Shown: positions 3,599 through 35,926 of the stretch, one piece after another
How positions within the stretch are numbered: position 1 is the first letter of the stretch
How the letters are laid out: each line of letters starts with the position of its first letter
From: a virus
DNA: 41,033 nt
Strand: one strand, 5' to 3'
Virus record (IMG/VR): IMGVR_UViG_3300031603_000011
Location: 1 to 41,033 of that record
Notes under the pieces: model-generated
Told to the model about the DNA's origin: nothing
Database searches by the model: none
What the model saw: the letters and a program-made list of their open reading frames with translations, nothing else
Position numbers and translations under genes: made by a program

Positions 3599-3627
3599 AT
3601 TATACTCTATTATTCTTTTTTTGTCAA
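3599..3627 (-). promoter_or_regulatory. Consensus sigma-70 promoter for endonuclease gene
   Basis: On the minus strand, TTGACA (3622-3627), a 17-nt spacer and TATAAT (3599-3604). Both hexamers match the consensus exactly. The spacer contains AAAGAATAATA, which is also found in the promoters at 21429 and 30257. Transcription should start at about 3592, the A of the ATG. Confidence 0.85.
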
Positions 3628-6048: not shown

Positions 6049-6128
6049 ATTATTTCCTCCAAATAAATTTTCTATATAAAATTATGTTTTGTATAACATT
6101 ATCTTACTTAATATTCAAAAACTAGGTT

Positions 6129-8358: not shown

Positions 8359-8368
8359 ATCAGTCTCC

Positions 8369-10201: not shown

Positions 10202-10636
10202 CTAAATGTATTTTTTTATTCCTCTATAAACTCTCTTAATCGTATTGTCCACTACATGATCAAATGTAATTTGTATATATTTCATATCTTCATTTATATA
10301 ATATCTTTGTTGTATTTCTTCTTTCAGGGATCTATTAATACACTTAGCAGTGTTCCCATCTGTTTCTATAATCTCTAAAAAATCCCCTCTAGTATTATCT
10401 TTAGAAAAGTTAAAAAATGGACTATTATCTTTTTTGAATTGTCTCTTACCTTTGTGCGATGCAGCTAAAGGTAAAGTGTATTCTTTTTCTTCTATGAGTA
10501 TATTCTTAAACTCTTTAAATACCTTTGTTGTAGGATATATACTTTTTTGAACCTCAAGGAATTGACCCACTTCAAATTTAGGGGTCTGTTCCTTTAGTTC
10601 TTCTAGTAATGATCCTAATGTATAAACTTTATCCAT
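10202..10636 (-). CDS. Hypothetical protein downstream of the portal gene
   Basis: 144 residues. The ATG overlaps the portal stop codon by 8 nt (ATGGATAA), indicating translational coupling; no strong separate ribosome site is seen. It has a helical N-terminus and a mixed alpha/beta body with two basic patches (ASHKGKRQFKKDN, KRVYRGIKKYI). No family recognised. Its position suggests a head-completion or connector-associated role, but nothing in the sequence proves it. Confidence 0.75.
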   Translation of the reverse strand: MDKVYTLGSLLEELKEQTPKFEVGQFLEVQKSIYPTTKVFKEFKNILIEEKEYTLPLAASHKGKRQFKKDNSPFFNFSKDNTRGDFLEIIETDGNTAKCINRSLKEEIQQRYYINEDMKYIQITFDHVVDNTIKRVYRGIKKYI

Positions 10637-13600
10637 TTAATATTGTATTTCCACAATCAACTGTTAATTCATTCAAAGACTTAAGTGTTCCACTCTCATC
10701 TTTTTCCCATAGAGTAACTACTCTTCTTTCAAAGTCTATTCCTTTAAACTCATTAAGAGATGTTAAAGCAACTATATTATTTCTATTAAGTTTATTACTT
10801 TTAACTTTTACACTTCCAGTTATAAAACTAGATGCTGCTTCAAACATAGGAGCTAAATCTGCTGTCTTGTTATAATCTTTAGATGCTTTTATTAAGTTAA
10901 AGAAGTCTGTTTTATTTTCTATTAAGAAATCTTTACCAAACATATTTGTTATTGTAGATGCTTCTAAATCTACTGGTGCTTCTGGAGGTGCTTCACCTTC
11001 TGGAGGAACTGCTCCTGCTGGGATTTCCATTCCAGCAATATCTCCAGGAACTCCTGCTGCCATTCCACCTGCTTGTGCTTCATTACCTTCTAACTTTTTT
11101 TGTAATGTAATATCAGCAATCTCTTTATTAGACATTTTTAAGATGTTTTTAAGTATCCATTCATTAGGAAAAAGATTTAACTGCTGTATAGCGGCGATAA
11201 GGGCCATTCTCTGGTTAATTAATTCAATTTCTGTTATCTCTTTTACGTTAGATGGAGGAGTAAGTTCAATTTTGAAATTACTTAGATCTTCCTTTTTATA
11301 TCCTTTGAAGAACAACTCTAATGCTGCTACTTTATTAAGTCCCTGAATAATCTGTGACTGAACTCTCTCAATAAATCTACCAAATTTCTGGTCAATAGTT
11401 GAATTATGAACTACTACTCCTGCAGATAAAGCAAAGTTAGGGGTTTCATCATCTACTGTAATATCATATGTATCAACTGTTTCTTCTAAAAATCTTACTT
11501 GTTTTACTTTATGATTATAAGGATAACAAACTCTTAATTCATTTAACCCTTTTTTATAACCTAGAGCCTTTAAGATATTAGTTATTGTAGTAGTAGAAAT
11601 TTTTAAGGATTTAGAAATGAAAACTCTTGACTCATTTCTAATTTTCATTATTTCCGGAAAATAATATTCTTTATTTATAAAATTTGCCCAACTTTCATAT
11701 CCTTCTTTTTTTATATAATTGAGTAAAGTAACATTAGAAATTTTAAAGAATTTTGAAACTTCTATAGAGTTCTTAGAAACACTAAGTTGTTCTTTAATTG
11801 AATCAATTTTTAATTTTTTAGTTTTAGTTTTTAATGCATTATACTCATTAAGGTTTTCTAAAATAAAACTTTCCCAATCCTTATATCCAAAATCTTGAAT
11901 GATATATCTTAATGTCATTCTATTAATATTCATATACTTAGAAACATTAAGCAAACTATCATTTTTTATTTCACCAATAACTTTAAGAATTTGTTTTTCA
12001 GTTGTATATCCTCTCTTACACATTTTTTTTCTATACTCTTCGCTTTTCCATTTTTCTTTCATCATATAACTATGCAAATTCCAATGATCTTTGTTAGTCA
12101 TACAGATAAGATTACTTGGATTGTTGTTATTTTTAAGAAAATCAATATGATGCGTAGTAGTTTTTCTTTCTTTTGAGCTTATATTTTTTTTATATTCTTC
12201 TCTCAATTCATTTTTCTTAATTATTCTATGGGTATATTCATATTCTCCTGTGTTGTTGTTCATAAGCATTTCATAATTAGGCATACTTTTACTTGAAGAT
12301 AACTTTGAATATATTGGCATCAATGAAGTGTTTTCTTTTAAGTCCTGTGCTTCACAATAACTTCCATCTCTTAACATAAATTTATGATCAGGAGTTGCTT
12401 TTATTGTTTTATCGTTATCAAGCACCACTTCAACTAATTCAGCATCCTGACGAGTCATTCCTGCCCATTTAATAGGCTTAATAACCCATTCTCCATCTTT
12501 TATTGAATATACAAAATTTTTCTTACCGTCTTTAAACTCTTCTGAAATATCTTTTATAGATAAATCTCTTCCATCTGTAAGCTTTATCTTTGTTTCTGGA
12601 TGTAAACACAAGCTTCTTTCTAAATTAGCTTGCTCACCCATATAACTAGGAGGTATATTCATTGTTTTAAGTATCTTATCTTTAAAATATTTTAGTAATG
12701 GATCTTCAGAACCTGAATTACCCATTGCTGCTCCACCTTGAAGTGTTTCAATTCTAGTTCCAGTTTGACCTTCTCTTACAGGAACAAATATATCAGATGT
12801 AATTGACATTACATTTGCTTTCTTATTAATATTTCCATTCTCATCTATAAAGGATTGTGATCTATAAGCATTTTTCATTTTAGTTAAAAATCGTTTAGCC
12901 TCAACAGCATTGAGATTACCTACATCTATGTAGAATACTCTTCTTTCTGGTGCTCGGCTTATTCGATATACTAACATTAAATCTTCAAGCATAACTAAAC
13001 GTCTGTAAGTTCTAATTCCTGCTTCTAATAGAGATCCACCATAAGGTGCATGAGATTTATTATCTATTTTGAAGTGAATGATTTGCCAAGGGAATAATCT
13101 ATATTCAGAAACCTCTTGAGCAGTTCTTGATGCTCCAGTTCCTTCTTTTTTCTTAACTACTTTATATGTAAAGTGAGAAAGCTTACCATCTTTTTCTATT
13201 CTCTCTACTTTGTCTGGTTCTAGGTATCTAACTCTTCTAATCTCTTTTGGCTTCTTATAATCATCCGGAACAATTTCATAAAAATTATCACCCATCTTAA
13301 CTGTCTCATAGAAGATAGTCCATAATTCATTATTCATATCTAATTTCTTGATAAAAACTTCATCAAGAACATCTTTAATTGCTTCATCATCAGAAAAGAA
13401 TTTCATTACATCACCAGAGTCATTAGGTTGTGATGAATCATCTGAGATAATTTCAATACCTCTATGAATGAATTCCATCCCATCCATTTCTTTATATGTA
13501 TCATATCCTGTTTTTCTGTTAGTTAAATCACTTCCCTGACCAAACTCTGTATCATCAAAAAAGATATTAAAGTCGGAACCATCTGAATATGAGTCATCAG

Positions 13601-13733
13601 TTAAGTCTATTTTTTTAGGATCAATATCTGTCTTTAGTTCCTGACCGAGATCAGAGATAGCATTAATATCTGTCTGGATACTTCTTGCTGCTTTTTCATC
13701 TACAAATACTTCAACTCCATCTATAAGTGGCAT
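10629..13733 (-). CDS. gp20: Portal vertex protein (T4 gp20-like) with intein
   Basis: 1034 residues as encoded, 632 after removal of a 402-residue intein. The portal is the dodecameric ring at the packaging vertex. Extein features typical of gp20: MEFIHRGIEIISDDSSQP, the beta region YLEPDKVERI, the central helix block RRLVMLEDLMLVYRISRAPERR followed by FYIDVGNL, and LKTMNIPPSYMGE then STIDQKFGRFIERVQ. The C-terminus has a Pro/Ala-rich linker (about PEGEAPPEAPVD). The start has AGGAG 8 nt upstream, 3 nt after the stop of the previous gene. It is flanked by overlapping genes of the same packaging operon. Confidence 0.95.
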   Translation of the reverse strand: MPLIDGVEVFVDEKAARSIQTDINAISDLGQELKTDIDPKKIDLTDDSYSDGSDFNIFFDDTEFGQGSDLTNRKTGYDTYKEMDGMEFIHRGIEIISDDSSQPNDSGDVMKFFSDDEAIKDVLDEVFIKKLDMNNELWTIFYETVKMGDNFYEIVPDDYKKPKEIRRVRYLEPDKVERIEKDGKLSHFTYKVVKKKEGTGASRTAQEVSEYRLFPWQIIHFKIDNKSHAPYGGSLLEAGIRTYRRLVMLEDLMLVYRISRAPERRVFYIDVGNLNAVEAKRFLTKMKNAYRSQSFIDENGNINKKANVMSITSDIFVPVREGQTGTRIETLQGGAAMGNSGSEDPLLKYFKDKILKTMNIPPSYMGEQANLERSLCLHPETKIKLTDGRDLSIKDISEEFKDGKKNFVYSIKDGEWVIKPIKWAGMTRQDAELVEVVLDNDKTIKATPDHKFMLRDGSYCEAQDLKENTSLMPIYSKLSSSKSMPNYEMLMNNNTGEYEYTHRIIKKNELREEYKKNISSKERKTTTHHIDFLKNNNNPSNLICMTNKDHWNLHSYMMKEKWKSEEYRKKMCKRGYTTEKQILKVIGEIKNDSLLNVSKYMNINRMTLRYIIQDFGYKDWESFILENLNEYNALKTKTKKLKIDSIKEQLSVSKNSIEVSKFFKISNVTLLNYIKKEGYESWANFINKEYYFPEIMKIRNESRVFISKSLKISTTTITNILKALGYKKGLNELRVCYPYNHKVKQVRFLEETVDTYDITVDDETPNFALSAGVVVHNSTIDQKFGRFIERVQSQIIQGLNKVAALELFFKGYKKEDLSNFKIELTPPSNVKEITEIELINQRMALIAAIQQLNLFPNEWILKNILKMSNKEIADITLQKKLEGNEAQAGGMAAGVPGDIAGMEIPAGAVPPEGEAPPEAPVDLEASTITNMFGKDFLIENKTDFFNLIKASKDYNKTADLAPMFEAASSFITGSVKVKSNKLNRNNIVALTSLNEFKGIDFERRVVTLWEKDESGTLKSLNELTVDCGNTILNG
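11403..12608 (-). mobile_element. HNH-endonuclease intein in the portal gene
   Basis: 402 residues. Starts with Cys (CLHPETKIKL), has splicing block B (ATPDHKFMLRDG), and ends AGVVVHN before +1 Ser. The inserted nuclease is HNH type: HHIDFLKNNNNPSNLICMTN followed by DHWNLH. Three helix-turn-helix-like repeats follow (SKYMNINRMTLRYII, SKFFKISNVTLLNYI, SKSLKISTTTITNIL), probably for target recognition. Excision joins ANLERSL to STIDQKFGR in a conserved portal stretch. Confidence 0.92.
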
Positions 13734-14129: not shown

Positions 14130-14604
14130 CGTTTTTCTCTTTATGATCTTTATAGTATATTGCTACTTTGTCTTCTTCTAGGTTACCTTCATGAACCAAT
14201 TCATATCCGCCTTCCATGATCCATCTCTTATCACTTCTATGAATTCTTTCATCTTCATATGAGTAATATATAATATCAGGTTTAAAAAGTTTAGCATATC
14301 TTTTACCTAGAATTTCGAAAACCTTAAAAAACCGTTTAACGTTTGGTCTATCTTTTCCAAATTCAATTTCCCAGTCAAACCCTGTAATTGTTCTAACTTC
14401 ATATGATTTCATTATATCATATTCTTTAAAAGAACCAAACTCTTTACTATAACTATAAAACTCATCAAAAGAAAACTCAGTTAGACCTAGTGTTACTTTA
14501 TTATCTCCATCGAGAAACGTATATTTAATTCCATAATCTACTATTTCTTCTAGTACTTTTATTCCATTTATATCTAATATTAATTTGTGGTTCCTATTAA
14601 CCAT
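14119..14604 (-). CDS. Hypothetical protein between terminase and portal
   Basis: 161 residues. The ATG lies inside the last codons of the terminase gene with AAGGAAG 7 nt upstream, so it is co-translated. Mixed alpha/beta, aromatic-rich (FDWEIEFGK, LFKPDIIYYSYEDER, KRWIMEGGYELVHEG). The block EILGKRYAKLFKPDIIYYSYED resembles conserved phage proteins of unknown function. I cannot assign a function; position suggests a virion assembly role. Confidence 0.75.
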   Translation of the reverse strand: MVNRNHKLILDINGIKVLEEIVDYGIKYTFLDGDNKVTLGLTEFSFDEFYSYSKEFGSFKEYDIMKSYEVRTITGFDWEIEFGKDRPNVKRFFKVFEILGKRYAKLFKPDIIYYSYEDERIHRSDKRWIMEGGYELVHEGNLEEDKVAIYYKDHKEKNDEI

Positions 14605-17600
14605 TCATAATCTTCCTTAGAGCATCCATATGAATCTTCAAAATCATCATTGTCCATTGTATCAGAAGAAAGAACATCAAAAGTTTCCGCAACTCTTTTT
14701 AAAGAACTATCTTCAGAATTATCTTTACTGCCAGACTCTATTACTTCACCGTCATCAGTTATTAAAAAAGATTCTCCAGAATTTATAGCTTTATTTCTTA
14801 AGTATAAAGCTAAAGCTAGTGATATGATAGTATCATCATTTGATCCACCAGAATGCTCTGGTTTATTTCCACCTGCCCATATCCAAGTTGATAACTCCAT
14901 CCATAATCTCTTGCTATAAATCTTTATACTATCAAACAACTCAGGAACAGTAATCCAATCAATAAAATCATTAGTCAATAACTTTCTAGTCTTAACGTCT
15001 GTAGTCCAACCTGTCATCCGTGTGATTCCATTCTTGGTCTTTTTCTGTTTATATACATTCTGGTATGGATCAATTTCTGAATAATATACGCCATTGAAAA
15101 TTGCTTCACCTATACTATTACATTCTATTGCTAAGTATGCTTCATTGTAATATATAGCAGCTTTTTTTATAAATCTTGCAAAGTTTGGTGTAGACATATG
15201 ACCTTTGTATTCTGCTACTTGTTCGTATTCTGCAACATCAAGAATTTCCATAGTAGAGAAGTCTTTACCTGTTCCTGATGAAACATCAATCCCTGCTATA
15301 TACCTATGTCCAGGAATTGGCTTCTTCCAAATCCACCATCCTTCATACTCAGAAGTCCCGAAGACATCTTTAGTTATTGGTTCTCTCAATCTTTCTTCTA
15401 CATTAGAAAGTATCTCTTCGGAAAAGACTTTATCTCCTGCAACAATAAAATCATGTAATATCTCTTGACGATATGCTGCTGTATTTAAATCGTCGTGTGC
15501 TGCTTTTAACCATTCATTATCTAAATATGTTTCTCTTGCTATCGGTTTAAAGAATTCATTATATTTTTTCTTTATTTCTGGTTTATAATAATATCCTTCT
15601 TTGACTGCTTTATCAAGGATGTCGTTATATCCTTTCTTTGGCCCTTTAATTTTTTCATCATCAGGAACTTCCCACCAGTCAATTTCTAAATACTTAGTGT
15701 CTTTACTTCCTGCTCTTGCTGCTGTTACTTGCTCATAATAATAAGCACCTTTTCCAGCCACTCCGTTAGGTGTATTACTTCCTAACAACCCATTAGCATA
15801 AAAACTTTTAGATTCTGGAATAGTGAAATCATAAGTGTTTTTTTGGCTTTTTTCTTTAATGACACTTAAGACAGTATTGTCTATCATTCCACTAAGTAAT
15901 ATGTTATCATGGGTACTTTCTTTTAAATAACTGTTTTCTCTTATTTCGTCTATGTTATTATAATTTTGTTTTCTAGGTAGAGAAAAACCTATTTTTTCAA
16001 GAAATTTCTTTCTGTGGGAGTAAATTCTTAATGTGTTTGACTTTTTAATTAAAAAAGAATGTATTCCAAAACTTAATAAAATCATTTTTAATTGATAAAG
16101 AAGTTCATAGCTATAGCTTGTATAATCAACAGAATGATTCTTATAATTATTACATCCATCTCCATCAAACATCCCTTGTAATAAACTTATCATTAGAGTC
16201 TTTTTTAATTTAAGATTCCCTTTTGAAATTGTTTTATATTTAGCAGTAGTAGAAAAATATCCTAAAGAATTAAAAAGAAGAACAAATCCTTTTCCGAATA
16301 TATCTATTCTTCCGTTGTAAAATTTAAAAGAAAAGTTATATTTATTACAAATGTTTGATATTTTTTTAATAATAAAATCTTCAGTACAAGCTATACTTAT
16401 TTTATATTTCGTCTTATCTATATACCCTTCAGCTATATAAATTCCTATTAGATAAGATAAATCATTGTCTATTTTTTTAATATTAATATATTTTTCTGTA
16501 TTTCTTTTTGGTGTATAGATATAGTTTATAACTTCTAAACATCCTCTATATTTTATTTCAGAACTACTTAATATATTATCTCCTACTTTAATGTCTTTCA
16601 ACATTTTCAATTCAGACTTTCCATCTTTATTTATCATCATTGGATGAATAGGAGAACCAGAAATCTTAAATCCAGAGGAAGTTTCAACAGTATAAATATC
16701 AGTAATTCCACTATCATAAAATGTATTACATTCTTGCTGATGATTTATTCCGTCTATTTTAAATTCTGGTATTTCGTTATATCCTAATTTACAGTTTTTA
16801 GGTTTGTAATCTTTTACTTGTTCTAATCCACTATCTGTATAAATATAGGTATCTCCAACAACACAAGAAATTAATATCAACTGTCCACCTGTTTTATTTA
16901 AAGTAGGCTGTGCTGACGCAATAATATTTCTTGCCATTCTTTCTGATTGATAAAATGCAACCTCATCCAATATCAATACAGATAAAGAGTCACCACGACC
17001 AGCATTATCTGATTGACTTTCAGAGAGTATTGTTGAAGTTGAAGATTTCCCATGAATGAAAGTTATTTCCTGTTGATTTTGATATTTGATTGGTGTCTTC
17101 ATCCATTCTGGGAGGCTGTTCATTGTTGAATATATTTTCTTTACGAACTGTTGTGCTTTTTTTTGTTTAACTGATACAACATCTATTGATTCGGCAGGGA
17201 AGAAATGTGCTCTCCAAAAACTATATAGAGCAAAGATTGTTGATAATCCACTATTATGAACAACTAAACAATTAGATAGAAAATTACTTGTAGCAGTTGT
17301 AATATCATAAACGTTTTCGGGCTCTTCTAATGTTTGAATCTTTCTAATTTTATTAAATGGTTGATTTGAGTTATATGGTTTCTCTTTAGATATTAGTTCA
17401 ATTATCTCTTTTGTATCTGTTTTTCCTTTTATCCCTATTTCATCTATAAACTTTAATACTGATTTCTTCTGAGAGATCCTTATTTTCCAAAATCGTTGTG
17501 TTTGTTTTTTCCCAAATTGTTCTTGAATCCAACAATGAATTCCATATTTAGTTTGTAATATGTACTCTAATTGTTTTAATAATGTATAATTTGGAGCACC

Positions 17601-18650
17601 TATTCCTATTTCATATTGAATGTAATTAGGTCTTCTTTTGTCTTTGTTATATGTTATATATCCATCACCAGCAAATAATCTGTTTAACAATATAGACATT
17701 TGCTTCTTGTTCAAATTCATTAAATCTGTTGTTAGTATTCTATCAATAGATTTTTTATTTAGATTATGCTCATTCATAAAACTTAATATAGGTCTATATA
17801 ATTTACCTTTTGTTTTAGAAACTAATCTTAAATCATATCCTTGCTTTCTGTTTTCTACTAATGGTCTGTTGTAAATATATGGATGACAATTTTCAAAAGT
17901 TTCACCGGCTTCTAATACTTCATTTATATAATCTAAATTAGTATTAACAAAAATTGGCTGAGACGCTTTTCCATCTGCTAAATAATAACCTATTAATGCA
18001 GCATGTTTATCGTCTTCTAACTTAAAACTTCCAAAACTTCCATTATTAACTAAAGTAATTATTTTATCACTTAATGTTAATAATCTTGCTTCTTTATACC
18101 CTTCTTCTGTAAGTATTAAATGATCTAACGTTGTCATTACTTCAGCTCCAGAGTTTGTTAATATTCTGCAAACTTTCTTTTTGCCGTTATCATAAAAACG
18201 CTCAACAGTAACAAAATGGGATTTATTATTAATAACTGTTTCTACTTTATCTCCAACTTTCACATCTTTGATAGAAATATATCCACGATTAGTCATTACA
18301 AAGTTATCTTCTGTCAAACACTGTCTTGTTTTATCGAGAACAATTTTTCTGTAGTCCATTAGTTCTTTTGCTACTTCTGTCTGAAAGTAATAAGGATTCA
18401 TTTCAATAGTTCCTAATCCAGGAACATCTACTCTGCTATATTCATTTAGAAAATAACTAAATGATTTCTTAACTAAGAACATCTCTATACCAGCATCAAC
18501 TAATTCAACACCATCTGTATTATAGATTGTATAAACTAACTGACCAATTAAATAGCCAATAGCTTCTTTTAGTGTTGTTCTTATATTATATTTCTTTATC
18601 TTGTTTTCTATAGAACTGGTAAATGCTAGCTCTTCTTTTGTTAAAGCCAT
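14580..18650 (-). CDS. gp17: Large terminase subunit (T4 gp17-like) with two inteins
   Basis: 1356 residues as encoded, 636 after removing inteins of 356 and 364 residues; T4 gp17 has 610. It is the packaging ATPase and headful nuclease. ATPase motifs in the extein: deviant Walker A, K-T-R-Q joined to S-G-L-S-T after splicing; Walker B LSVLILDEVAFY; coupling motif LIS joined to TPNG. Nuclease motifs: first Asp in YIAGIDVSSGTGKDFS, Glu in AYLAIECNSIGEA, and paired Asp in GGSNDDTIISLALAL. Start ATG 18650 with GGAGAG upstream. Both inteins break ATPase motifs, so packaging depends on both splicing events. Confidence 0.96.
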   Translation of the reverse strand: MALTKEELAFTSSIENKIKKYNIRTTLKEAIGYLIGQLVYTIYNTDGVELVDAGIEMFLVKKSFSYFLNEYSRVDVPGLGTIEMNPYYFQTEVAKELMDYRKIVLDKTRQCLTEDNFVMTNRGYISIKDVKVGDKVETVINNKSHFVTVERFYDNGKKKVCRILTNSGAEVMTTLDHLILTEEGYKEARLLTLSDKIITLVNNGSFGSFKLEDDKHAALIGYYLADGKASQPIFVNTNLDYINEVLEAGETFENCHPYIYNRPLVENRKQGYDLRLVSKTKGKLYRPILSFMNEHNLNKKSIDRILTTDLMNLNKKQMSILLNRLFAGDGYITYNKDKRRPNYIQYEIGIGAPNYTLLKQLEYILQTKYGIHCWIQEQFGKKQTQRFWKIRISQKKSVLKFIDEIGIKGKTDTKEIIELISKEKPYNSNQPFNKIRKIQTLEEPENVYDITTATSNFLSNCLVVHNSGLSTIFALYSFWRAHFFPAESIDVVSVKQKKAQQFVKKIYSTMNSLPEWMKTPIKYQNQQEITFIHGKSSTSTILSESQSDNAGRGDSLSVLILDEVAFYQSERMARNIIASAQPTLNKTGGQLILISCVVGDTYIYTDSGLEQVKDYKPKNCKLGYNEIPEFKIDGINHQQECNTFYDSGITDIYTVETSSGFKISGSPIHPMMINKDGKSELKMLKDIKVGDNILSSSEIKYRGCLEVINYIYTPKRNTEKYINIKKIDNDLSYLIGIYIAEGYIDKTKYKISIACTEDFIIKKISNICNKYNFSFKFYNGRIDIFGKGFVLLFNSLGYFSTTAKYKTISKGNLKLKKTLMISLLQGMFDGDGCNNYKNHSVDYTSYSYELLYQLKMILLSFGIHSFLIKKSNTLRIYSHRKKFLEKIGFSLPRKQNYNNIDEIRENSYLKESTHDNILLSGMIDNTVLSVIKEKSQKNTYDFTIPESKSFYANGLLGSNTPNGVAGKGAYYYEQVTAARAGSKDTKYLEIDWWEVPDDEKIKGPKKGYNDILDKAVKEGYYYKPEIKKKYNEFFKPIARETYLDNEWLKAAHDDLNTAAYRQEILHDFIVAGDKVFSEEILSNVEERLREPITKDVFGTSEYEGWWIWKKPIPGHRYIAGIDVSSGTGKDFSTMEILDVAEYEQVAEYKGHMSTPNFARFIKKAAIYYNEAYLAIECNSIGEAIFNGVYYSEIDPYQNVYKQKKTKNGITRMTGWTTDVKTRKLLTNDFIDWITVPELFDSIKIYSKRLWMELSTWIWAGGNKPEHSGGSNDDTIISLALALYLRNKAINSGESFLITDDGEVIESGSKDNSEDSSLKRVAETFDVLSSDTMDNDDFEDSYGCSKEDYEWLIGTTN
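15774..16865 (-). mobile_element. LAGLIDADG intein 2 of terminase, in the ATPase coupling motif
   Basis: 364 residues, from Cys (CVVGDTYIYTDSG) to Ser-Asn (NGLLGSN) before +1 Thr. Block B reads ISGSPIHPMM. LAGLIDADG helices: LSYLIGIYIAEGYID and SLLQGMFDGDGCNN. Block F includes TYDFTIPESKSFYANG. The penultimate His is replaced by Ser. The insertion splits LIS from TPNG, the motif that couples ATP hydrolysis to DNA movement. Confidence 0.92.
17253..18320 (-). mobile_element. LAGLIDADG intein 1 of terminase, in Walker A
   Basis: 356 residues, from Cys (CLTEDNFVMTNRGY) to His-Asn (NCLVVHN) before +1 Ser. Block B reads MTTLDHLILT. LAGLIDADG helices: AALIGYYLADGKAS and LLNRLFAGDGYIT. The insertion point lies between Gln and Ser of the Walker A loop (KTRQ / SGLST). 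Confidence 0.94.
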
Positions 18651-20933: not shown

Positions 20934-20968
20934 AAAAAAAGACACTCAATTAAGAGTGTCTTTTTTTT
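20934..20968. terminator. Bidirectional rho-independent terminator
   Basis: Stem GACACTC / GAGTGTC, loop AATTAA, with A-run before and T-run after. It serves the convergent genes ending at 20918 and 20974. The stem sequence is the same as at 35891-35926. Confidence 0.93.
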
Positions 20969-21428: not shown

Positions 21429-21457
21429 TTGACAAAATAAGAATAATATGTTATAAT
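21429..21457 (+). promoter_or_regulatory. Consensus sigma-70 promoter for the 21502-22630 operon
   Basis: TTGACA (21429-21434), 17-nt spacer, TATAAT (21452-21457). The spacer includes AAGAATAATA as in the promoters at 3599 and 30257. Expected start near 21464, giving a leader of about 38 nt. Confidence 0.9.
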
Positions 21458-21501
21458 TAATTATGGATACACAATCACAAAAATAATAGAGGATGCAATA
21501 G

Positions 21502-21753
21502 ATGAAGAAGCAATATTTGATGAATATAATTTCACCTATATCGATGAAGCAATTTTATGGAGATAAAGAAATAAATTATATAACTCCAGAAATAGCTACT
21601 CGATCTATGACTGAAACAGAAATCATTAACTACTTAGAGGTAGAAAATAAAAAGCCAAAGAAAACTATTTTTAAACTTCAGGATTATTTTACTCTTGATA
21701 TGTATAATTCTTTAGTTGAAGTAGAAGATTTTTTAAATAAGGAAGCAATATGA
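21502..21753 (+). CDS. Small hypothetical protein
   Basis: 83 residues, first gene of a three-gene plus-strand operon. It has GAGG upstream of the ATG and overlaps the next gene by ATGA. Charged and helical in the C-terminal half (TETEIINYLEVENKKPKKT). No family recognised. The host-type promoter suggests early expression. Confidence 0.75.
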   Translation: MKKQYLMNIISPISMKQFYGDKEINYITPEIATRSMTETEIINYLEVENKKPKKTIFKLQDYFTLDMYNSLVEVEDFLNKEAI

Positions 21754-22142
21754 ATGTAGCAGTCGTAGGAAGTAGAAGTTTAGTAGATTATGATTTAGTA
21801 GAAAAAGTTTTAATGACTATCATTAAGCCAGAGGTCGATACCATTGTCTCCGGAGGAGCAACAGGTGCTGACCAATTAGCTGAACATTTTGCTAATGATA
21901 ATTTAATAGCAAAAATTATACATAAACCAGATTACAAACAATATGGTGCAGGTGCTCCATTTATTAGAAACCAATTAATTATTGATGATGCCGATATGTT
22001 AGTTGCTTTCTGGGATGGTGTTTCTAATGGAACAAGAGACAGCATCAAAAAAGCAGAAAAGAAAGGTATCACAGTGTTGAATATTAAAATAACTCTTCCT
22101 ACAAAAAAATTTAAAAGTGCTAATTACTGGAGTGAAAAGTGA
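21750..22142 (+). CDS. DUF2493 / SLOG-family nucleotide-binding protein
   Basis: 130 residues with the DUF2493 pattern: N-terminal strand MNVAVVGSRS, the phosphate loop IVSGGATGADQLAEHFA (Gly/Ala/Asp at 35-41), AGAPFIRNQ (67-75), and the closing LVAFWDGVSNGT (86-95). SLOG Rossmann-like domains bind nucleotides or NAD-derived ligands; the cellular role of phage members is not established. It is in an operon with a consensus host promoter, so probably made early. A counter-defence or NAD/nucleotide role is possible but unproven. Confidence 0.88.
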   Translation: MNVAVVGSRSLVDYDLVEKVLMTIIKPEVDTIVSGGATGADQLAEHFANDNLIAKIIHKPDYKQYGAGAPFIRNQLIIDDADMLVAFWDGVSNGTRDSIKKAEKKGITVLNIKITLPTKKFKSANYWSEK

Positions 22143-22630
22143 AAACAATAACAGAATTATCTGATCTCGTAGGAAATCAAGAACTAACTGATGAGTATTT
22201 TTCTAATCGATATAAAGAAGTTGATTGGGAACCTTCTCTTAATACATTAGAGAATTGTATAATACATAACATGCAAGATTATTATAGATTACTATCAGAC
22301 AGCCAACTTAGAGATTTTCATGATCAAGGGTATTATGCTCCGGATATGTTAAATATGTTTCCTAAAGGAGTTATAGTTCCTACTATTGCTTCTAATGGTT
22401 TTATAGAATTAAAAACAATCAATGGAATATTTCAATATAGACATATGTGCAGGGCAAATGTAATTGTTCCTATCAAGAAAAAAGATGAAGTGTATTTAAT
22501 CTTCCCATACTTAATTGCTTTTTCAGTTGCTGTTGAATACTTACTCCCTGACATAGCATCAAATATAATAAAAGTAGCTCCAATTTATGATATCATTGTT
22601 ACCCCTAATCATTTATTAGAGGACTTCTAA
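22139..22630 (+). CDS. Hypothetical protein, GTG start
   Basis: 163 residues. The GTG at 22139 overlaps the previous stop codon (GTGA) and has GGAG 6 nt upstream. The protein is mixed alpha/beta with a hydrophobic C-terminal stretch (VYLIFPYLIAFSVAVEYLL). Its last codon overlaps the end of the convergent gene at 22627 by 4 nt. No family recognised. Confidence 0.75.
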   Translation: MKTITELSDLVGNQELTDEYFSNRYKEVDWEPSLNTLENCIIHNMQDYYRLLSDSQLRDFHDQGYYAPDMLNMFPKGVIVPTIASNGFIELKTINGIFQYRHMCRANVIVPIKKKDEVYLIFPYLIAFSVAVEYLLPDIASNIIKVAPIYDIIVTPNHLLEDF

Positions 22631-23552: not shown

Positions 23553-23744
23553 CTATCCTTTTAATTGATCTACTTTTCCTCTAAATCCACACTCAGAACA
23601 CTGTACCATATTGAGTATATCCCTATAGGGAACTCCCTCAATGGGGGTAGGTGGTGTCATTGCGGTTTCGACGACCTTTCTACCACAAATAGGGCATCGA
23701 AGATGTGAGTCATAGTATTTCTTCATTTCATCAGTAAATATCAT
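23553..23744 (-). CDS. Small zinc-ribbon protein
   Basis: 63 residues with two Cys pairs (C17-C20 in CPIC, C49-C52 in CSEC) forming a likely zinc ribbon. Translation starts inside the end of the endonuclease gene (ATGA overlap) with GGAG 8 nt upstream. Such small proteins may modulate transcription or translation; no specific role can be given. Confidence 0.8.
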   Translation of the reverse strand: MIFTDEMKKYYDSHLRCPICGRKVVETAMTPPTPIEGVPYRDILNMVQCSECGFRGKVDQLKG

Positions 23745-25024
23745 AGCTTTAACTCCATCATCTTTTCTTTTATACTTTCATCATATCTGATTCTTAATAA
23801 ATATATGTTATTATCATAGCAAAACTTATTTTTAATATTGTCTCTCTTTTTTGATTCTACAAGATTTGCTGATCCACCCCAATACTTTACTGGTTTAAAA
23901 TGTTGTATTCCATCGTATTCTATACAAGTATTGTGTTCAGGAAGAAAAAAGTCAAATCGTAAAAGCTTTTTATATTTACAATTCTTAAATGTTTTTTGTT
24001 GCGTAAATTTAATATTCCTTTTACCTAAAAAATCTTTAACTTGAAGTTCTCCTTTTGAAGTATTACAGTTCGGGCAACCTTGCCCAGATAAATGACTATT
24101 AGGAAATTGTAGGTAGCTCCCATGCTTTTTACAAATAATTTCTATTCTTGTTTTACTTTTGCTGTAATTAACTTTAGAATAATCATATTTATCCCCATGA
24201 ACTTTAATTGCATCTTTAATAAACTCTTCTGTTGTTTTGTCTCTGCCGTAACACTTTGGACATTTATTTCCTTTTGCGTGATTTTTAGGAGATTGAAAAA
24301 AACTACCATGAATAGGACATATTATTTCTACTTTACTTTTTACATTTATATATTTAACTTTTGAATAATCATATTTATCCCCATGAACTTCAATTGCTCC
24401 CTTAATAAAAGATTTAGTATCTCCTTTTTTAGTTCCAGAACAACTCTGGCATCCACTTCCACTTAAGTGTTGATGAGCTAATTGCCAGAAACTCCCATGA
24501 ACAGAACATATAATTTCTATTTTTTTATGAGCTTTAATATATTCAACTTTAGAATAATTATATTTATTATTATGAACTTCAATTGCATCTTTAACAAATT
24601 GTGCTGTCGTTTTACTTCTTACAGCTCCTCCTTTTATATTACCACAAGTTTTACACCCTTCCCCTTTTAAGTGACAATTAGGTTCTTGCAAAAACTCTCC
24701 ATGAATAGAGCATTCTATTTTTACTTTAACGTGAGCACTCTCATAATTAACTTTTGAATAATCATATCTATCTCCATGAATATTTATTGCATCTACTATA
24801 AATTGCTCAGTGGTTTTTTTATTATTAAAGCGATTAATATACCCACAAGTTCTACAGATGCATCCACTTAAGTGATTGTTTGGTATCTGTAAAAAGCTTC
24901 CATGCCTTTTACAAATTATTTCTACTTTTGTTTTACTGTTGGTATAATTAACTTTTGAATAATCATATTCATTCCCATGAACTTTAATGGCATCTACTAT
25001 AAACTGCTCTGTTGATTTTTTCAT
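23741..25024 (-). CDS. Repeat-rich (DUF723-type) endonuclease downstream of the sigma factor
   Basis: 427 residues: five tandem ~58-residue units, each with the core FIxDAIxVHGxxYDYSKVxY, a strand (VEIICxxHGSF), a His-Leu and a CxxC pair, then a C-terminal PD-(D/E)XK / Vsr-like nuclease (KGELQVKDFL, LLRFDFFLPEHNTCIEYDG, QHFKPVKYWGG). The repeats are probable DNA-binding zinc modules and the C-terminus the catalytic part, as in phage-encoded homing endonucleases. It overlaps the sigma gene stop by 1 nt (TAATG). A paralogue with four units lies on the other side of the sigma gene. Confidence 0.85.
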   Translation of the reverse strand: MKKSTEQFIVDAIKVHGNEYDYSKVNYTNSKTKVEIICKRHGSFLQIPNNHLSGCICRTCGYINRFNNKKTTEQFIVDAINIHGDRYDYSKVNYESAHVKVKIECSIHGEFLQEPNCHLKGEGCKTCGNIKGGAVRSKTTAQFVKDAIEVHNNKYNYSKVEYIKAHKKIEIICSVHGSFWQLAHQHLSGSGCQSCSGTKKGDTKSFIKGAIEVHGDKYDYSKVKYINVKSKVEIICPIHGSFFQSPKNHAKGNKCPKCYGRDKTTEEFIKDAIKVHGDKYDYSKVNYSKSKTRIEIICKKHGSYLQFPNSHLSGQGCPNCNTSKGELQVKDFLGKRNIKFTQQKTFKNCKYKKLLRFDFFLPEHNTCIEYDGIQHFKPVKYWGGSANLVESKKRDNIKNKFCYDNNIYLLRIRYDESIKEKMMELKL

Positions 25025-25719
25025 TAGTTAATATCAACTTCTGCATCTCCAAAAAGTTCAGTTCCGTGCTCTCTCATTGCTTTCATAAACTCTCTAATAT
25101 CTATTGATCTCATGCCATAGCTCCTAGCCCAGCTGTAGAAGTCAGTTTTGGACACAAACTTCTTAGTCTTTTTCAGATAATCAACAAGGATTAAAGATAT
25201 CGAGATGAATCTCTTTCTCTTCTTTCCTATAAAGGATTTGTTGACGATATCAATCAAAGTGTCTTGAACTTCCTCTAAATAGAAATCAAAATTCATTGTC
25301 TTATGGTCGTATAAATCTAATTGGTCTGCTATGTCATTATGGTTTCTATGCTTCTTTCTTCTATCTGTATAGTTTAATAAACTTCTCTTAGATATGATTG
25401 AAAAGAAATTGAAACTTGAACCTTTTTCTTTAGTCCATTTCTGGAAATTTTGAAAGCATGACATATTTGCATGTGCAAAACAATCATCGTAATCCTCAAA
25501 AATATAGTATCTGTAAACTTGAATAATTGCTTTAACTATTTTCATAATTTCAAGCATTATTTTTTCTTCAATTACTTTATCTTTCCATAGAACAACCATT
25601 TTACCATCTCCACCAATTTCGGTGAGAGAGGTACGTTGGTATTCTACTAACATTTCATTTACTTTTTCTTCATCGTAATAAAAATTTTTCTTTTTTTTAG
25701 TAGTTATAGGTTTAGGCAT
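25024..25719 (-). CDS. gp55: Late-transcription sigma factor (T4 gp55-like)
   Basis: 231 residues. The central part has the sigma region 2 pattern of phage late sigma factors: EIMKIVKAIIQVYRYYIFED, YDDCFAHANMSCFQNFQKW, then SSFNFFSIISKRSLLNYTDR followed by RKKHRN. A C-terminal helical region (DFYSWARSYGMRSIDIREF) could be a winged-helix or region-4-like part. In T4, gp55 directs host RNA polymerase to TATAAATA late promoters. AAGGA lies 8 nt upstream of ATG 25719, inside the end of the preceding endonuclease gene. Sandwiched between two paralogous endonucleases with overlapping reading frames on both sides. Confidence 0.78.
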   Translation of the reverse strand: MPKPITTKKKKNFYYDEEKVNEMLVEYQRTSLTEIGGDGKMVVLWKDKVIEEKIMLEIMKIVKAIIQVYRYYIFEDYDDCFAHANMSCFQNFQKWTKEKGSSFNFFSIISKRSLLNYTDRRKKHRNHNDIADQLDLYDHKTMNFDFYLEEVQDTLIDIVNKSFIGKKRKRFISISLILVDYLKKTKKFVSKTDFYSWARSYGMRSIDIREFMKAMREHGTELFGDAEVDIN

Positions 25720-26807
25720 AAATTATTCCTTAAAGTTTCTTCTATGTTCTCATTATAAGCTATCCTTAAGAGATTAATTTTATTAACATTACAATAATTA
25801 TTTTTTATTTCGTCCCTTATTTTTGTTTTTTTAAATCTTTCTTCTCCGCCCCAATATTCAACAGGTTTAAAATGCTGTTCTCCATCATATTCTATACAAA
25901 GATTGTTTTCTGGAACATAAAAATCAAAATGCAGTAATTGTTTATATTTACATTCATCAAAAGTTTTCTGTTGAATAAATTTTATTTTGTTATTAGTTAA
26001 AATAGCTTTAATTTTGTTTTCACCTTTAGATGTATTACAGTTTGGGCAGCCTCTTCCTGCTAAGTGTGTTTTTGCGCTTTGCAAGAAACTCCCGTGCTTT
26101 TCACATATAATTTCTACTTTTTTATTACTATTAATATAAATGGATTTATCATAATTGTATAAGTCATCATGAACTTTTATTGCGTCAACTATAAATTGTT
26201 CTGTTGTTTTTGTTCTTTTGTCATTACAACATTTTAAACATCCATGATTATTTAAATGATCGTTTGGGTTTTGCCAAAAGCTACCATGAATATGACAAGT
26301 TATTTCTAGTTTTGTTTTTGAATCAATATAAACAGATTTATCATAATTGTATAAACCATTATGAATTTCATTTGCTTCTATAATAAATTCTTTTGTTGTT
26401 TTTTTTCTTAATTTAGAACTTTTTAGATATCCACATTTTACGCAGCCTCTACCAAACAAATGATCTCCAGGGATTTGAAAAAAAGATCCATGTTCTTCAC
26501 ATATAATCTCTACTTTTATATGAGCGCCAATGTAATCAACTTTAGAATAATCATATTTATTATTATGGACTTTATTAGCTTTTTCTATAAAACTTTTTGT
26601 AGAGAGTTTTTGCTTCTTAATAGAACATTTTTTACAGATGTTTTTATGTAGATGAGACATAGGAGTTTGAAAAAAAGATCCATGTTCTTCACAAATAATC
26701 TCTACTTTTTTTCTATTGTTTTTATAATCAACTTTAGAATAATCATATTTATTGCCGTGAATTTTTATTGCGTCAACTATAAACTGCTCTGTTGTCTTTT
26801 TAATCAT
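25704..26807 (-). CDS. Repeat-rich (DUF723-type) endonuclease upstream of the sigma factor
   Basis: 367 residues: four ~60-residue units of the FIVDAIKIHGNKYDYSKVDY / VEIICEEHGSF / CxxC type followed by the same Vsr-like nuclease core as the paralogue (SKGENKIKAIL, LLHFDFYVPENNLCIEYDG, QHFKPVEYWGG). The reading frame overlaps the sigma gene start by 16 nt and the preceding gene by 1 nt (TAATG). Units 3 and 4 replace YDYSKV by YNYDKS. Function as a homing endonuclease is inferred from family and setting. Confidence 0.85.
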   Translation of the reverse strand: MIKKTTEQFIVDAIKIHGNKYDYSKVDYKNNRKKVEIICEEHGSFFQTPMSHLHKNICKKCSIKKQKLSTKSFIEKANKVHNNKYDYSKVDYIGAHIKVEIICEEHGSFFQIPGDHLFGRGCVKCGYLKSSKLRKKTTKEFIIEANEIHNGLYNYDKSVYIDSKTKLEITCHIHGSFWQNPNDHLNNHGCLKCCNDKRTKTTEQFIVDAIKVHDDLYNYDKSIYINSNKKVEIICEKHGSFLQSAKTHLAGRGCPNCNTSKGENKIKAILTNNKIKFIQQKTFDECKYKQLLHFDFYVPENNLCIEYDGEQHFKPVEYWGGEERFKKTKIRDEIKNNYCNVNKINLLRIAYNENIEETLRNNLCLNL

Positions 26808-27481
26808 TAATTTTCCAAGCTATTTCTAAAAAACAATATTTGTTTGTTTAATATAGATTGATCAAAAATTCCAGATAAAACCTTTCCATCTTTCTTTAAC
26901 ATAGTGCTAAATGAAGTAGTTCCTGCGTTCTTAAGAATTTTAAAACCTATGCTTGTTTCTCTTGCTGATCCATAATCAATATCAACAATCACTTTATCAC
27001 CTTTATCAACAATGTCACCTAATTCGGCAGCACCTTTATCTCCAGCGAGTATTAAGATAACTTCTTGTATCTCTGGTGAGATGATGGCGGTTCCTTTGAT
27101 AGAACCTTTTTTCTCTAATACTTTTTCAACGATAGATTGTTCGGTATGTTTTTTATCTGATAGGTAATCAACTAGATCTTGGATTGTTTGAATATTAGAT
27201 GCTTCTTCTTTAGTAACAGTAAGTTCGCCTTTAACTTTTGCTTTAATAACTGCTTCAATAATTAAATCACCTTTCTCATCTTTATTTTCAGTTGGAGCAA
27301 TGTCTACAGGATCTGCTACTACATCAACTGGTGCTACAGGAACTTCTGGTTCAACTTCTGGTTCAACTTCTGGTTCATCTTTAAATTCTTGAAGGAATAC
27401 ATCTATATCGTAAAAGAGTTTTAGACTATCTTTCTTTGCTTCGAGGATTATTTCATCTACTAAATTTTTTAATGTGCTCAT
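26807..27481 (-). CDS. Putative internal head protein, Pro/Glu/Val repeat
   Basis: 224 residues, start behind GGAGAATAAACC. N-terminus MSTLKNLVDEIILEAKKD contains I-L-E followed by Ala, a good gp21-type site. Residues about 36-60 are a low-complexity EPEV / PVAPVDVV stretch. The remaining part is helical then beta (KVIVDIDYGSARETSIGFKIL). No family recognised. The leader suggests packaging in the head, but location in the sigma-factor operon leaves other roles open. Confidence 0.65.
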   Translation of the reverse strand: MSTLKNLVDEIILEAKKDSLKLFYDIDVFLQEFKDEPEVEPEVEPEVPVAPVDVVADPVDIAPTENKDEKGDLIIEAVIKAKVKGELTVTKEEASNIQTIQDLVDYLSDKKHTEQSIVEKVLEKKGSIKGTAIISPEIQEVILILAGDKGAAELGDIVDKGDKVIVDIDYGSARETSIGFKILKNAGTTSFSTMLKKDGKVLSGIFDQSILNKQILFFRNSLEN

Positions 27482-27484
27482 GGT

Positions 27485-27697
27485 TTATTCTCCTATGTGA
27501 TGTTCTGCTACATCAGTTAGGCCATTAATAAAACTTATGAGTTGCTTGTGGTCTTGAAAAATAAATCCAGTATTACCGGGATCATGTTCATCATACACTT
27601 CAGATTGTTCGTCAGCTTCCGAGAAGAACACTTCAATCGTTTTATTCCCAGCCTTAAACTTATAACTATTACTATTATCTTTACTTTGTTTATACAT
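27485..27697 (-). CDS. Small hypothetical protein with a structured ribosome site
   Basis: 70 residues: beta-rich N-terminus (YKFKAGNKTIEVFF), acidic centre, helical C-terminus (HKQLISFINGLTDVAEHHIGE). Starts at ATG 27697 with AAGGAG 8 nt upstream; this site lies within a long hairpin (27698-27736). It is 3 nt upstream of the next gene. No function assigned. Confidence 0.75.
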   Translation of the reverse strand: MYKQSKDNSNSYKFKAGNKTIEVFFSEADEQSEVYDEHDPGNTGFIFQDHKQLISFINGLTDVAEHHIGE

Positions 27698-27740: not shown

Positions 27741-28418
27741 TTAGTCTAATAAATCCGTGAAGTCTTCCCAACCTTGATCTACACATAGAAATGCTAAATA
27801 ACCTAACAAATCAGATACATCATTCTTCCTTAGTTCTTTAGAGTTTTTAATTCTTTTTAACTTATCATCCAGTCTAATTAATATCCCATTGAGACTTTCA
27901 TTATTCTTTTCTGATACGAAAGAATTAAATATACCTAATGGTTCCATCACACTATTACCATAACGTCTATTTTTCTCGTTAACGAGTTTAAACATAGAGG
28001 TATATACATTGGCTATACCTTCAGTAATTTTAGTATGAGGTTCGTGATGTAAAGGTTCAGGAGATTGTTTAACTTCCCACTTATCTACATCTGTTACCAT
28101 TACAGATATCTTTGGAGAAGGGATATCTGTAATTTTATTTACCCTATCAACAGCATCTGGATTCCATTTATCAATAAGACTATGCTCAGTCTTTTCAAAT
28201 AAGTCAGCAGAGTTTATACTATCGCTGTATTCCTTTCGTGACCCAAGTATTGGCCCTTGATTTTTCTTAAATATTTTACCAATATCTTCTATTTTCTGCC
28301 CTATACTTTCATTATTATATAGGTCTACTTCATTATTTTTTTTATATGATTCATCTATAACTGAATTAATTCTATCTATTTCTAATTTTAATTCTGACTT
28401 CCCTTTTTTCTCATTCAT
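27741..28418 (-). CDS. Hypothetical helical protein
   Basis: 225 residues from ATG 28418, which overlaps the stop of the small membrane protein by 8 nt; ATG 28439 is an alternative with AGAGGA upstream but lies deep in that gene. Charged and mostly helical. Features: IGQKIEDIGKIFKKNQGPILG, the strand ISVMVTDVDKWEVKQ, a His-rich turn EPLHHEPHTK and a C-terminal SDLLGYLAFLCVDQGWEDF. No family recognised. Part of the operon led by the Ro-like gene. Confidence 0.75.
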   Translation of the reverse strand: MNEKKGKSELKLEIDRINSVIDESYKKNNEVDLYNNESIGQKIEDIGKIFKKNQGPILGSRKEYSDSINSADLFEKTEHSLIDKWNPDAVDRVNKITDIPSPKISVMVTDVDKWEVKQSPEPLHHEPHTKITEGIANVYTSMFKLVNEKNRRYGNSVMEPLGIFNSFVSEKNNESLNGILIRLDDKLKRIKNSKELRKNDVSDLLGYLAFLCVDQGWEDFTDLLD

Positions 28419-28554
28419 CTTCTTTAATAACCCTATCATCTTTAAATCCTCTTACTAAATACACTATTCCATCAACAATCATTTCAAGCAATATAGCAAC
28501 TCCTAAAAAATGCCAGAACGAGTAAAATGTAAAATGTAAAAATTCCATTATCAT
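28411..28554 (-). CDS. Small membrane protein
   Basis: 47 residues. One long hydrophobic, aromatic-rich segment (FLHFTFYSFWHFLGVAILLE then MIVDGIVYLV) followed by a charged tail (RGFKDDRVIKEDE). ATG 28554 overlaps the previous stop (ATGA) and has AAGGA 6 nt upstream; its own stop overlaps the next start. Perfect coupling at both ends supports a real gene. Function unknown; could be a small membrane or superinfection-type protein. Confidence 0.7.
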   Translation of the reverse strand: MIMEFLHFTFYSFWHFLGVAILLEMIVDGIVYLVRGFKDDRVIKEDE

Positions 28555-28796
28555 TCTTCTTCCTTTTCTTCCCTTGGAAAAAATTGCTTTCCATTCTTAT
28601 CAACCATTACAATACCTGATAGATCCAGCATTCTTTTCTGGCCCGGTGTTGGGTCAGCCGCTAATACAGTTCCTAACATTAAAATTGGATTCATAATAAA
28701 ATCTTTTTCACTGAACTCAAATCCATCAAACTCAAATACTCTACTTGCTTCACCAAAGATATGTTCGCTACCTGTAATTCCTAATATGTCATTCAT
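28551..28796 (-). CDS. Small hypothetical protein
   Basis: 81 residues, acidic C-terminus (REEKEEE). Starts with GAGGG upstream and an ATGA overlap with the Ro-like gene. Includes FDGFEFSEKDFIMNP and PTPGQKRMLDLSGIVMVDKNG. No family recognised; close coupling suggests it works with or is simply co-expressed with the Ro-like protein. Confidence 0.7.
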   Translation of the reverse strand: MNDILGITGSEHIFGEASRVFEFDGFEFSEKDFIMNPILMLGTVLAADPTPGQKRMLDLSGIVMVDKNGKQFFPREEKEEE

Positions 28797-30238
28797 AAAA
28801 TCCCTCTTTCAACTAATCTCATTATTTTTTTTGTTCTCGAATTATAACCGTGGATTGTAAAAAATCTATTGTTAGAGTTCGAGAGTTTACTTTCACTTAA
28901 ACTAATTAAACAAACGTTAGTAGTAATGTTCTCTGCTTTTAATTTAGATACGCTTCTTTCTATATCATGTAAATACTTTCTATTAGTCCATATAAAAATT
29001 GCATTAGGAACAAAGTTTAATTTAGCTGCCTTGATATGATTTTCTGTTTCTAATCCACCTTCAGCTTCCATAATAGCTCTAATATCTTTTGATCTCCTTA
29101 CTCCGTTAAATGAAAATACATTATTAGATGAAGCAGAAGCATTCGATGCAATTACTGCAGGTGATATTAATAAGAAAGGATCAATAGAACAAAACATATT
29201 ATTAGACATATCAATCAAATGAACTACATCATCTTTAGTTCCTGATAAACTTTTAATCTTTTCTCTTATTATATCCTGTAGAACCATAACAGTATTCATA
29301 TTAACACTTGCACTTATTAAAGTATTGAGTAAAGAAAGTAATTCAATTACATCAATTTTTAATGTTCTTTTTTCTTTAAGTATATCTACTAATCTTGTGG
29401 ATAAATAATCTTCCATTCCTTGAAGAAATATTCTACTTTTAATATAACGAAAAAATTCATCATCAGTCTTTGAATCTAGTACTTTATATAATACATCTTT
29501 TGATCTAATAACATTTCCTGGAATTGCTGACGGATCAAAATTAAACTCATCTATCAAATCAGTTACTGGTTTATTAAAACTATTGTTTCTAAGCTTTTCA
29601 TAAAGACAAATTAAAGGTAAGTTATTTTCATAATCTATCTTATCATTGAACCCTATCTCACCTTTCGCTAACCATTTAAAGATTAAACTTTCAATCTTGT
29701 TACGTGGCTTTGGTTTGATAATTCTAATTATGTCTTGCCCAGACCAGCCATATTTGGCACCCTCTCCGACAAAAGCTCTTTCAAGAAAATGAACATCATG
29801 AGAGATAAACCACTGCTTTATTACTAGATGTATGATACTTCCCATTCCTCTATACTTTCTAACTAAAGAAAGAAATAAATATAAATCATTTGGAGATTTA
29901 ACTATCTTTTGGAATGCTGTCCGGAATATTTTCTTTGCGTGAAAATTTCCCATAGATAAAAATACTAATGATAGTAACAGTGTTTCTGGCTTAGTAACAA
30001 TCTGAGAGTTATCAAGCACTATCTTAGTTAGTTCTTCTACGTTTGTGAATGCTGCTTTTCTAATGAGATGAATTTTACTCAAGTCAATTTTATTAAGGTC
30101 TGAGTAAAATTCTTTATCAAATGAACCAGTTAAGATCCATCTTTTTATTTCTTTTAAGTCTGTTGGAGTTAAACTAATGACTTCCCTTTTTTTAGTTGTT
30201 TTCTTTATGATAACAACTTTTTTTTTATGTTCTAGCAA
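28793..30238 (-). CDS. TROVE/Ro60-like RNA-binding protein with degenerate vWA domain
   Basis: 481 residues. Residues ~20-330 match the TROVE HEAT-repeat ring of Ro60/Rsr: IKRWILTGSFDKEFY, NVEELTKIVLDNS, ETLLLSLVFLSMGNFHAKK, RGMGSIIHLVIKQWF, and the signature YGWSGQDIIRIIKPKPRNK followed by FKWLAKG. Residues ~337-480 form a von Willebrand A-like domain (DVVHLIDMSNNM, AIFIWTNRK); the MIDAS is degenerate (D-M-S-N-N in place of D-x-S-x-S). Ro proteins bind the 3' ends of misfolded RNAs and Y RNAs and work with exonucleases in RNA quality control. The start is TTG 30238 with AGGAG 6 nt upstream, ~12 nt after the predicted transcription start. It leads an operon ending beyond the late sigma factor. 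Confidence 0.82.
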   Translation of the reverse strand: MLEHKKKVVIIKKTTKKREVISLTPTDLKEIKRWILTGSFDKEFYSDLNKIDLSKIHLIRKAAFTNVEELTKIVLDNSQIVTKPETLLLSLVFLSMGNFHAKKIFRTAFQKIVKSPNDLYLFLSLVRKYRGMGSIIHLVIKQWFISHDVHFLERAFVGEGAKYGWSGQDIIRIIKPKPRNKIESLIFKWLAKGEIGFNDKIDYENNLPLICLYEKLRNNSFNKPVTDLIDEFNFDPSAIPGNVIRSKDVLYKVLDSKTDDEFFRYIKSRIFLQGMEDYLSTRLVDILKEKRTLKIDVIELLSLLNTLISASVNMNTVMVLQDIIREKIKSLSGTKDDVVHLIDMSNNMFCSIDPFLLISPAVIASNASASSNNVFSFNGVRRSKDIRAIMEAEGGLETENHIKAAKLNFVPNAIFIWTNRKYLHDIERSVSKLKAENITTNVCLISLSESKLSNSNNRFFTIHGYNSRTKKIMRLVERGIL

Positions 30239-30256
30239 TTGATGCTCCTGTAGTTA

Positions 30257-30285
30257 ATTATATCATATTATTCTTTTTTTGTCAA
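30257..30285 (-). promoter_or_regulatory. Consensus sigma-70 promoter for the Ro-like / sigma-factor operon
   Basis: On the minus strand, TTGACA (30280-30285), 17-nt spacer, TATAAT (30257-30262). The spacer AAAAAAGAATAATATGA shares 14 leading bases with the promoter at 3599. Start of transcription expected near 30250. Confidence 0.9.
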
Positions 30286-35890: not shown

Positions 35891-35926
35891 AAAAAAGACA
35901 CTCTTAATTAAGAGTGTCTTTTTTTA
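35891..35926. terminator. Bidirectional rho-independent terminator
   Basis: Stem GACACTCTTAATTAAGAGTGTC, fully self-complementary, flanked by an A-run and a T-run. It lies between the convergent endolysin and holin-candidate genes. The GACACTC / GAGTGTC arms are identical to those at 20934-20968. Confidence 0.93.

Follow-up and report, generated by a model that had tools for sequence, protein, structure and literature searches.

The closest described relatives of the protein reported here are the Ro60/Rsr proteins (TROVE, PF05731, with vWA_Ro60, PF25045), in which H187 is reported to be essential for direct Y RNA contact (PMC4030889). Human Ro60, a ring protein that binds RNA, is an autoantigen. 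TROVE proteins of jumbo phages have also been published, their carriers forming a small subset of jumbo phages in which ROT/TROVE stands beside RNA-repair enzymes (PMC7824862). Among such phage-borne Ro60 relatives (Sixama, Atu_ph07, Phosso, Vibrio vB_pir03 and Thermus phiLo, 9l5y), most keep the contact histidine and the MIDAS, and none was observed to share its operon with a gp55-like sigma factor. Phosso and Atu_ph07, both jumbo phages, carry TROVE between the genes for tail sheath and tail tube. DUF2828/DUF7788 proteins likewise combine a ring with a vWA part; they occur in 681 phage records and are often annotated as 'Ro-like RNA binding protein'. Upstream of such a Ro-like gene, Listeria phage CKA15 produces very abundant unannotated transcripts (for example at 26,236-26,727) for which the authors suggested Y RNAs, and the Ro-like protein itself, CKA15_055, was detected in purified particles (PMC12282133). 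The lineage described below may bear on why phages carry Ro60 relatives. Its TROVE-like protein shares with Ro60/Rsr the order of the HEAT ring, the GW..D..R motif and the vWA-like C-terminus, and finds its best sequence and fold matches there, whereas it falls below Pfam detection (as does that of Vibrio vB_pir03), carries Lys for the contact His, has lost the MIDAS and keeps only 30 of 129 columns that are near-invariant among 13 viral TROVE proteins.

A divergent Ro60 relative on a T4-like phage fragment

The window, meaning the whole 41,033-nt stretch analysed, is an isolated 41-kb viral fragment with a T4-like major capsid protein and terminase. The gene runs on the minus strand from a TTG start (30238-30236) to 28793; the earlier note had given these coordinates correctly and left the strand unstated.

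28793..30238, minus strand: divergent TROVE/Ro60-like protein, 481 aa; HEAT ring at residues ~24-330, degenerate vWA-like part at ~335-481
30245..30249, minus strand: AGGAG, Shine-Dalgarno-like, 6 nt before the TTG start, read directly

The Pfam TROVE model PF05731 did not detect the window protein, and Pfam and PHROGs scans gave nothing usable. Ro60 homology, as proposed in the earlier note, was nevertheless confirmed by several routes. A phmmer search of PDB sequences, whose alignments included the GWS..D..R region, matched the protein to Xenopus Ro60 (7e-5), human RO60 (8.7e-5) and Deinococcus Rsr (0.0026); the signature YGWSGQDII..KPKPRNK, quoted earlier, was found in the protein. Annotated phage 'Ro-like RNA binding proteins' were matched by tblastn (5e-6), and hhalign with five annotated phage Ro-like proteins gave 1.9e-13, a further hhalign comparison 7.8e-17. 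A profile built from 69 TROVE proteins of viral contigs matched only this ORF in the six-frame window (3.9e-19, scaled to a search of 25,000 sequences) and had 0 matches in 200 shuffles. The profile search that had been proposed as a check was thus negative for PF05731 and positive for the viral profile. A phmmer match to TniQ (3.3e-5) covered a different stretch of the protein, was absent for the ortholog described below, and was taken as chance.

The AlphaFold model, computed with a TROVE protein alignment, placed a ring at residues 24-330, where pLDDT was mostly 75-95, whereas confidence in the C-terminal part was low. Foldseek gave the ring model 13 significant matches in the PDB, every one of them a Ro60, Rsr or phage TROVE protein, phiLo Ro60 (9l5y) among them, so that the HEAT-repeat ring characteristic of the TROVE/Ro60 superfamily is predicted for the window protein, as had been expected. 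This model leans toward a TROVE fold because of the alignment on which it was built, and the weight is therefore carried by the sequence evidence; single-sequence prediction gave pLDDT 47 and was unusable. Taken together, the window protein is almost certainly a genuine, if very divergent, TROVE/Ro60 relative, judged by its sequence matches. The view that such proteins are uncommon in T4-like phages was not supported, given at least 318 IMG/VR loci with TROVE besides the published jumbo-phage cases. Phage Ro proteins are already known, and the window protein is a new, divergent variant.

Promoter and operon shared with the late sigma factor gene

The perfect sigma-70 promoter reported before the TROVE gene was recovered, as were the seven tightly coupled genes said to follow down to a gp55-like sigma factor.

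30257..30285, minus strand: early-type promoter TTGACA-17-TATAAT, exact, with TG before the -10 (extended -10); also precedes the ortholog
21429..21457, plus strand: second copy of the early-type promoter 29-mer
3599..3627, minus strand: third copy of the 29-mer
28551..28796, minus strand: ORF of 81 aa that overlaps the stop of TROVE; the relative yielded no homolog
28411..28554, minus strand: ORF of 47 aa, for which the relative likewise yielded no homolog
27741..28439, minus strand: 232-aa protein, phrog_1485 (unknown); C-terminal part kept beside TROVE in the relative
27485..27697, minus strand: 70-aa protein, 66% identical in the relative
26807..27481, minus strand: 224-aa protein, 61% identical in the relative
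25704..26807, minus strand: HNH-type nuclease, 367 aa, an insertion into the operon that is missing from this site in the relative
25024..25719, minus strand: gp55-like late sigma factor, matching phrog_234 with E 1.3e-4; identity to the protein of the relative 73-74%

The promoter ends 18 nt upstream of the TROVE start. Exact TTGACA-17-TATAAT sites occurred four times in the window against 0.11 expected, and the 29-mer of this one (TTGACAAAAnAAGAATAATAnnnTATAAT) occurred as three near-identical copies in all, with none in shuffles. The T4 late-promoter motif TATAAATA was no commoner in the window than in shuffles. Behind the second copy lies a plus-strand operon (21429-22630) whose second gene has a homolog following the same promoter in the relative.

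Relatives were obtained only by scanning IMG/VR with the 29-mer, direct searches with the TROVE or terminase sequence having returned none. The scan yielded a 201-kb contig, IMGVR_UViG_3300033146_004404 (G001, hereafter the relative), with ~42 copies of the 29-mer (43 sites, one weak), and several smaller contigs. The relative encodes an ortholog of the window protein (38% identity, E 2e-98) that matches Ro60 in its own right (3.4e-5) and has the same promoter directly before it. The gene order there is TROVE, 99 aa, 70 aa, 234 aa, sigma and zinc ribbon, that is, the window operon minus the HNH nuclease and two small ORFs. Since the operon neighbours are 61-74% and the capsid proteins 71% identical, TROVE diverges faster than its surroundings. 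In the relative, 40 of the 43 promoter sites lie on the plus strand; the TROVE-sigma promoter is one of the three on the minus strand, which is shared with the structural genes. The arrangement 'early, together with the late sigma' is therefore conserved in a second phage, in agreement with the earlier reading, early activity being inferred from a predicted promoter.

This conserved early-type promoter also bears on a possible role in the virion, in which a Ro-like ring would be packaged or injected and act at entry. The position of the window gene within a structural gene block, the location between tail genes in Phosso and Atu_ph07, and the presence of a Ro-like protein in CKA15 particles (PMC12282133) would fit such a role; however, an early-type promoter precedes the gene, and the CKA15 protein belongs to the DUF2828 family, as judged by the homology of its Listeria relatives. 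We consider a virion protein improbable.

Several other features of the window were noted. It contains two pairs of related nuclease-like genes (456-1940, 1913-3592, 23741-25024 and 25704-26807), the last two of which have HNH/homing endonuclease matches, flank the sigma gene and were not found there in the relative. The terminase, portal-like and a further head gene (14580-18650, 10629-13733 and 6721-8394) look interrupted by intein-like inserts, the aligned pieces being split or shorter in the relative. Near-identical, strong terminator-like hairpins (AAAAAAGACACTC...GAGTGTCTTTTTT) are found at 20934-20967 and 35891-35924, one of them bidirectional and placed between convergent genes.

Y-RNA contact surface, MIDAS and proposed function

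The MIDAS (DxSxS..T..D), which had been described as broken in a vWA-like C-terminus, is indeed degenerate: the window protein reads DMSNN, the Thr motif is absent and TDxE is replaced by TNRK, and the ortholog reads DMSHR and TN, leaving neither with a canonical vWA bearing a MIDAS. In Xenopus Ro60 numbering, counted from the phmmer alignment, the near-invariant H187 column holds Lys175 in the window protein and Lys176 in the ortholog, so that both lack the canonical Y-RNA-contact histidine. The K170/Y171 columns hold Gly158/Glu159 and R174 is Lys162 in the window protein, while W177, D181 and R184 are retained. Both proteins have altered His, Lys/Tyr and MIDAS positions, and the GW..D..R..KPKPRNK core is among the stretches best conserved between them and is still basic. 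The window protein is a divergent but conserved form of TROVE that probably no longer acts by way of Y RNA. The sequences themselves show the homology to TROVE, the degenerate vWA, the promoter and an operon conserved in the relative.

One explanation of the altered residues is a repurposed ring that has no RNA role and acts by protein contacts, for example with the late sigma factor or RNA polymerase. It would account for the conserved operon with sigma, for the degenerate MIDAS and changed RNA-contact residues, and for divergence (38%) that is faster than that of the neighbours (61-74%), but it sits poorly with a GW..D..R..KPKPRNK core that stays conserved and basic, and we regard it as quite improbable.

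We favour, at about even confidence, a reading in which this T4-like jumbo phage lineage would make the Ro60/TROVE ring early, from a host-sigma-type promoter and on the same transcript as the late sigma, for the handling of damaged RNA. The ring would still bind RNA, probably the single-stranded ends of small RNAs (tRNA, rRNA) that are damaged or misfolded, and would do so with neither the classical Y-RNA contact surface nor a metal-bound vWA ligand. Such RNAs might then be handed to repair or decay, with the RtcB and Rnl2-type RNA ligase that the relative encodes alongside ~20 tRNAs and a tmRNA. Against this reading, both enzymes come from the relative and not from the present fragment and do not adjoin TROVE, and a Lys in place of H187 may yet touch RNA. 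This mechanism is put forward tentatively, and the control of host or phage RNA turnover suggested in the earlier note would, like the handling of damaged RNA, be a role that we infer.

Y-like RNAs and a second Ro-like protein

Rfam searches found no associated Y RNA in the 41-kb fragment (weak matches lay far below threshold). A repeated element was found in the relative and two further contigs, directly after tRNA genes or at early-promoter starts, with the form UAGACAC-UAACAGCAAYYAAA ... AAUGUGUCUA-GUUUU and a length of 46-132 nt.

L114 (a region of G001), 6005-6062, 6299-6357, 11938-11983, 16932-16987 and 3127-3243: Y-like RNAs
L130, L131, L133, L134, L164:2661-2927, L165, L166:2436-2486 and L167:3983-4240: Y-like RNAs at other loci
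G001:C1:37031-38500 (L114:17031-18500): second Ro60-like protein, DUF2828+DUF7788, with intact MIDAS and a Y-like RNA in its leader

Covariation is seen in the closing stem of seven pairs, although pairing had been required to select most members. When the outer anchors and ACAGCA alone were fixed, all four free positions paired in 28 of 32 distinct sequences, where 14.9 would be expected, and 2000 re-pairings reached 22 at most. Two copies enclose a YrlA-like series of T-arm, hairpin and D-arm; comparing them shows two compensatory changes, and all pairs are intact. Because some copies enclose this YrlA-type tRNA-like module, in addition to the covarying stem and ACAGCA, the elements are probably Y RNAs. 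At threshold, the Rfam searches of this analysis gave them no name; a YrlA match of 23.7 bits in the relative, against a threshold of 69, was rejected as not discriminating, two ordinary tandem tRNAs (L162) scoring 28.4 bits, and the case for Y RNAs therefore rests on the stem, covariation and gene context. The single match of the RNA pattern in bacterial genomes lay inside an ORF and was taken as chance.

A motif scan found the element in 11 further contigs, none with a detectable TROVE, which weakened a direct link between the RNA and TROVE; nor was an element found near the TROVE gene. These observations bear on a classical Ro60/Rsr function, in which a host or phage Y RNA on the outer surface would gate the ring or tether it to a nuclease such as PNPase. 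The Rsr-Y RNA-PNPase system is established in Deinococcus, according to work cited in PMC12282133, and Y-like RNAs do occur in a relative bearing the TROVE ortholog. Set against this, the H187, K170 and Y171 columns are altered in both orthologs and the RNAs occur in 11 contigs without TROVE, making a classical function unlikely. The Y RNA partner that the earlier note had looked for is likewise doubtful, since neither ortholog retains the contact His or the Lys/Tyr next to it, and since the Y-like RNAs of the relatives adjoin a different Ro-like protein.

That protein, absent from the present fragment and encoded by the relative in addition to the TROVE ortholog, is of the DUF2828/DUF7788 type and, unlike the window protein, has an intact MIDAS (DTSGSM) and flanking Y-like RNAs. 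Proteins of this 490-aa class were present in 11 of the 14 contigs with the element, some of which are near-duplicates, and one to three elements lay within ~450 nt upstream of the gene in 9 of these 11. In a profile comparison, the DUF2828/DUF7788 protein matched TROVE across ring and vWA (E 1.2e-5), which makes it a remote relation of Ro60; its profile had no significant match to the window protein or its ortholog. Such RNAs accompany the gene in unrelated phages too: four named phages were then chosen by the DUF2828/DUF7788 protein alone and checked for elements. Listeria List-36 has three just upstream of the Ro-like gene, Bacillus PJN02 has five, and Mycobacterium Finnry has three just downstream, one enclosing a YrlA-type module; Synechococcus B23, with one element ending 8 nt before the gene, is a weaker case (2 matches vs 0.6 in shuffles). 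The CKA15 transcripts are likely to be stem-ACAGCA elements. In the present phage lineage, Y RNAs are probably bound by the DUF2828/DUF7788 protein.

The favoured reading, an early TROVE ring that handles damaged RNA, could extend to two Ro systems, a possibility that we rate below even: a DUF2828/DUF7788 protein with Y RNAs of its own in several copies (ACAGCA and a closing stem, in part YrlA-like), and an early, Y-RNA-independent TROVE ring tied to the late sigma, the two jointly managing damaged or aberrant RNA. A ring without the Y-RNA surface and MIDAS, and a second ring beside Y-like RNAs, would allow the two proposed functions to be told apart and each to be put to the test. The stem-ACAGCA motif also offers a simple route to Y-like RNAs beside hundreds of phage Ro-like genes. 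The tRNA array of the relative (L114) includes the tmRNA at 12523-12810 and a tRNA with a CUA anticodon at 7434-7508, a possible amber suppressor.
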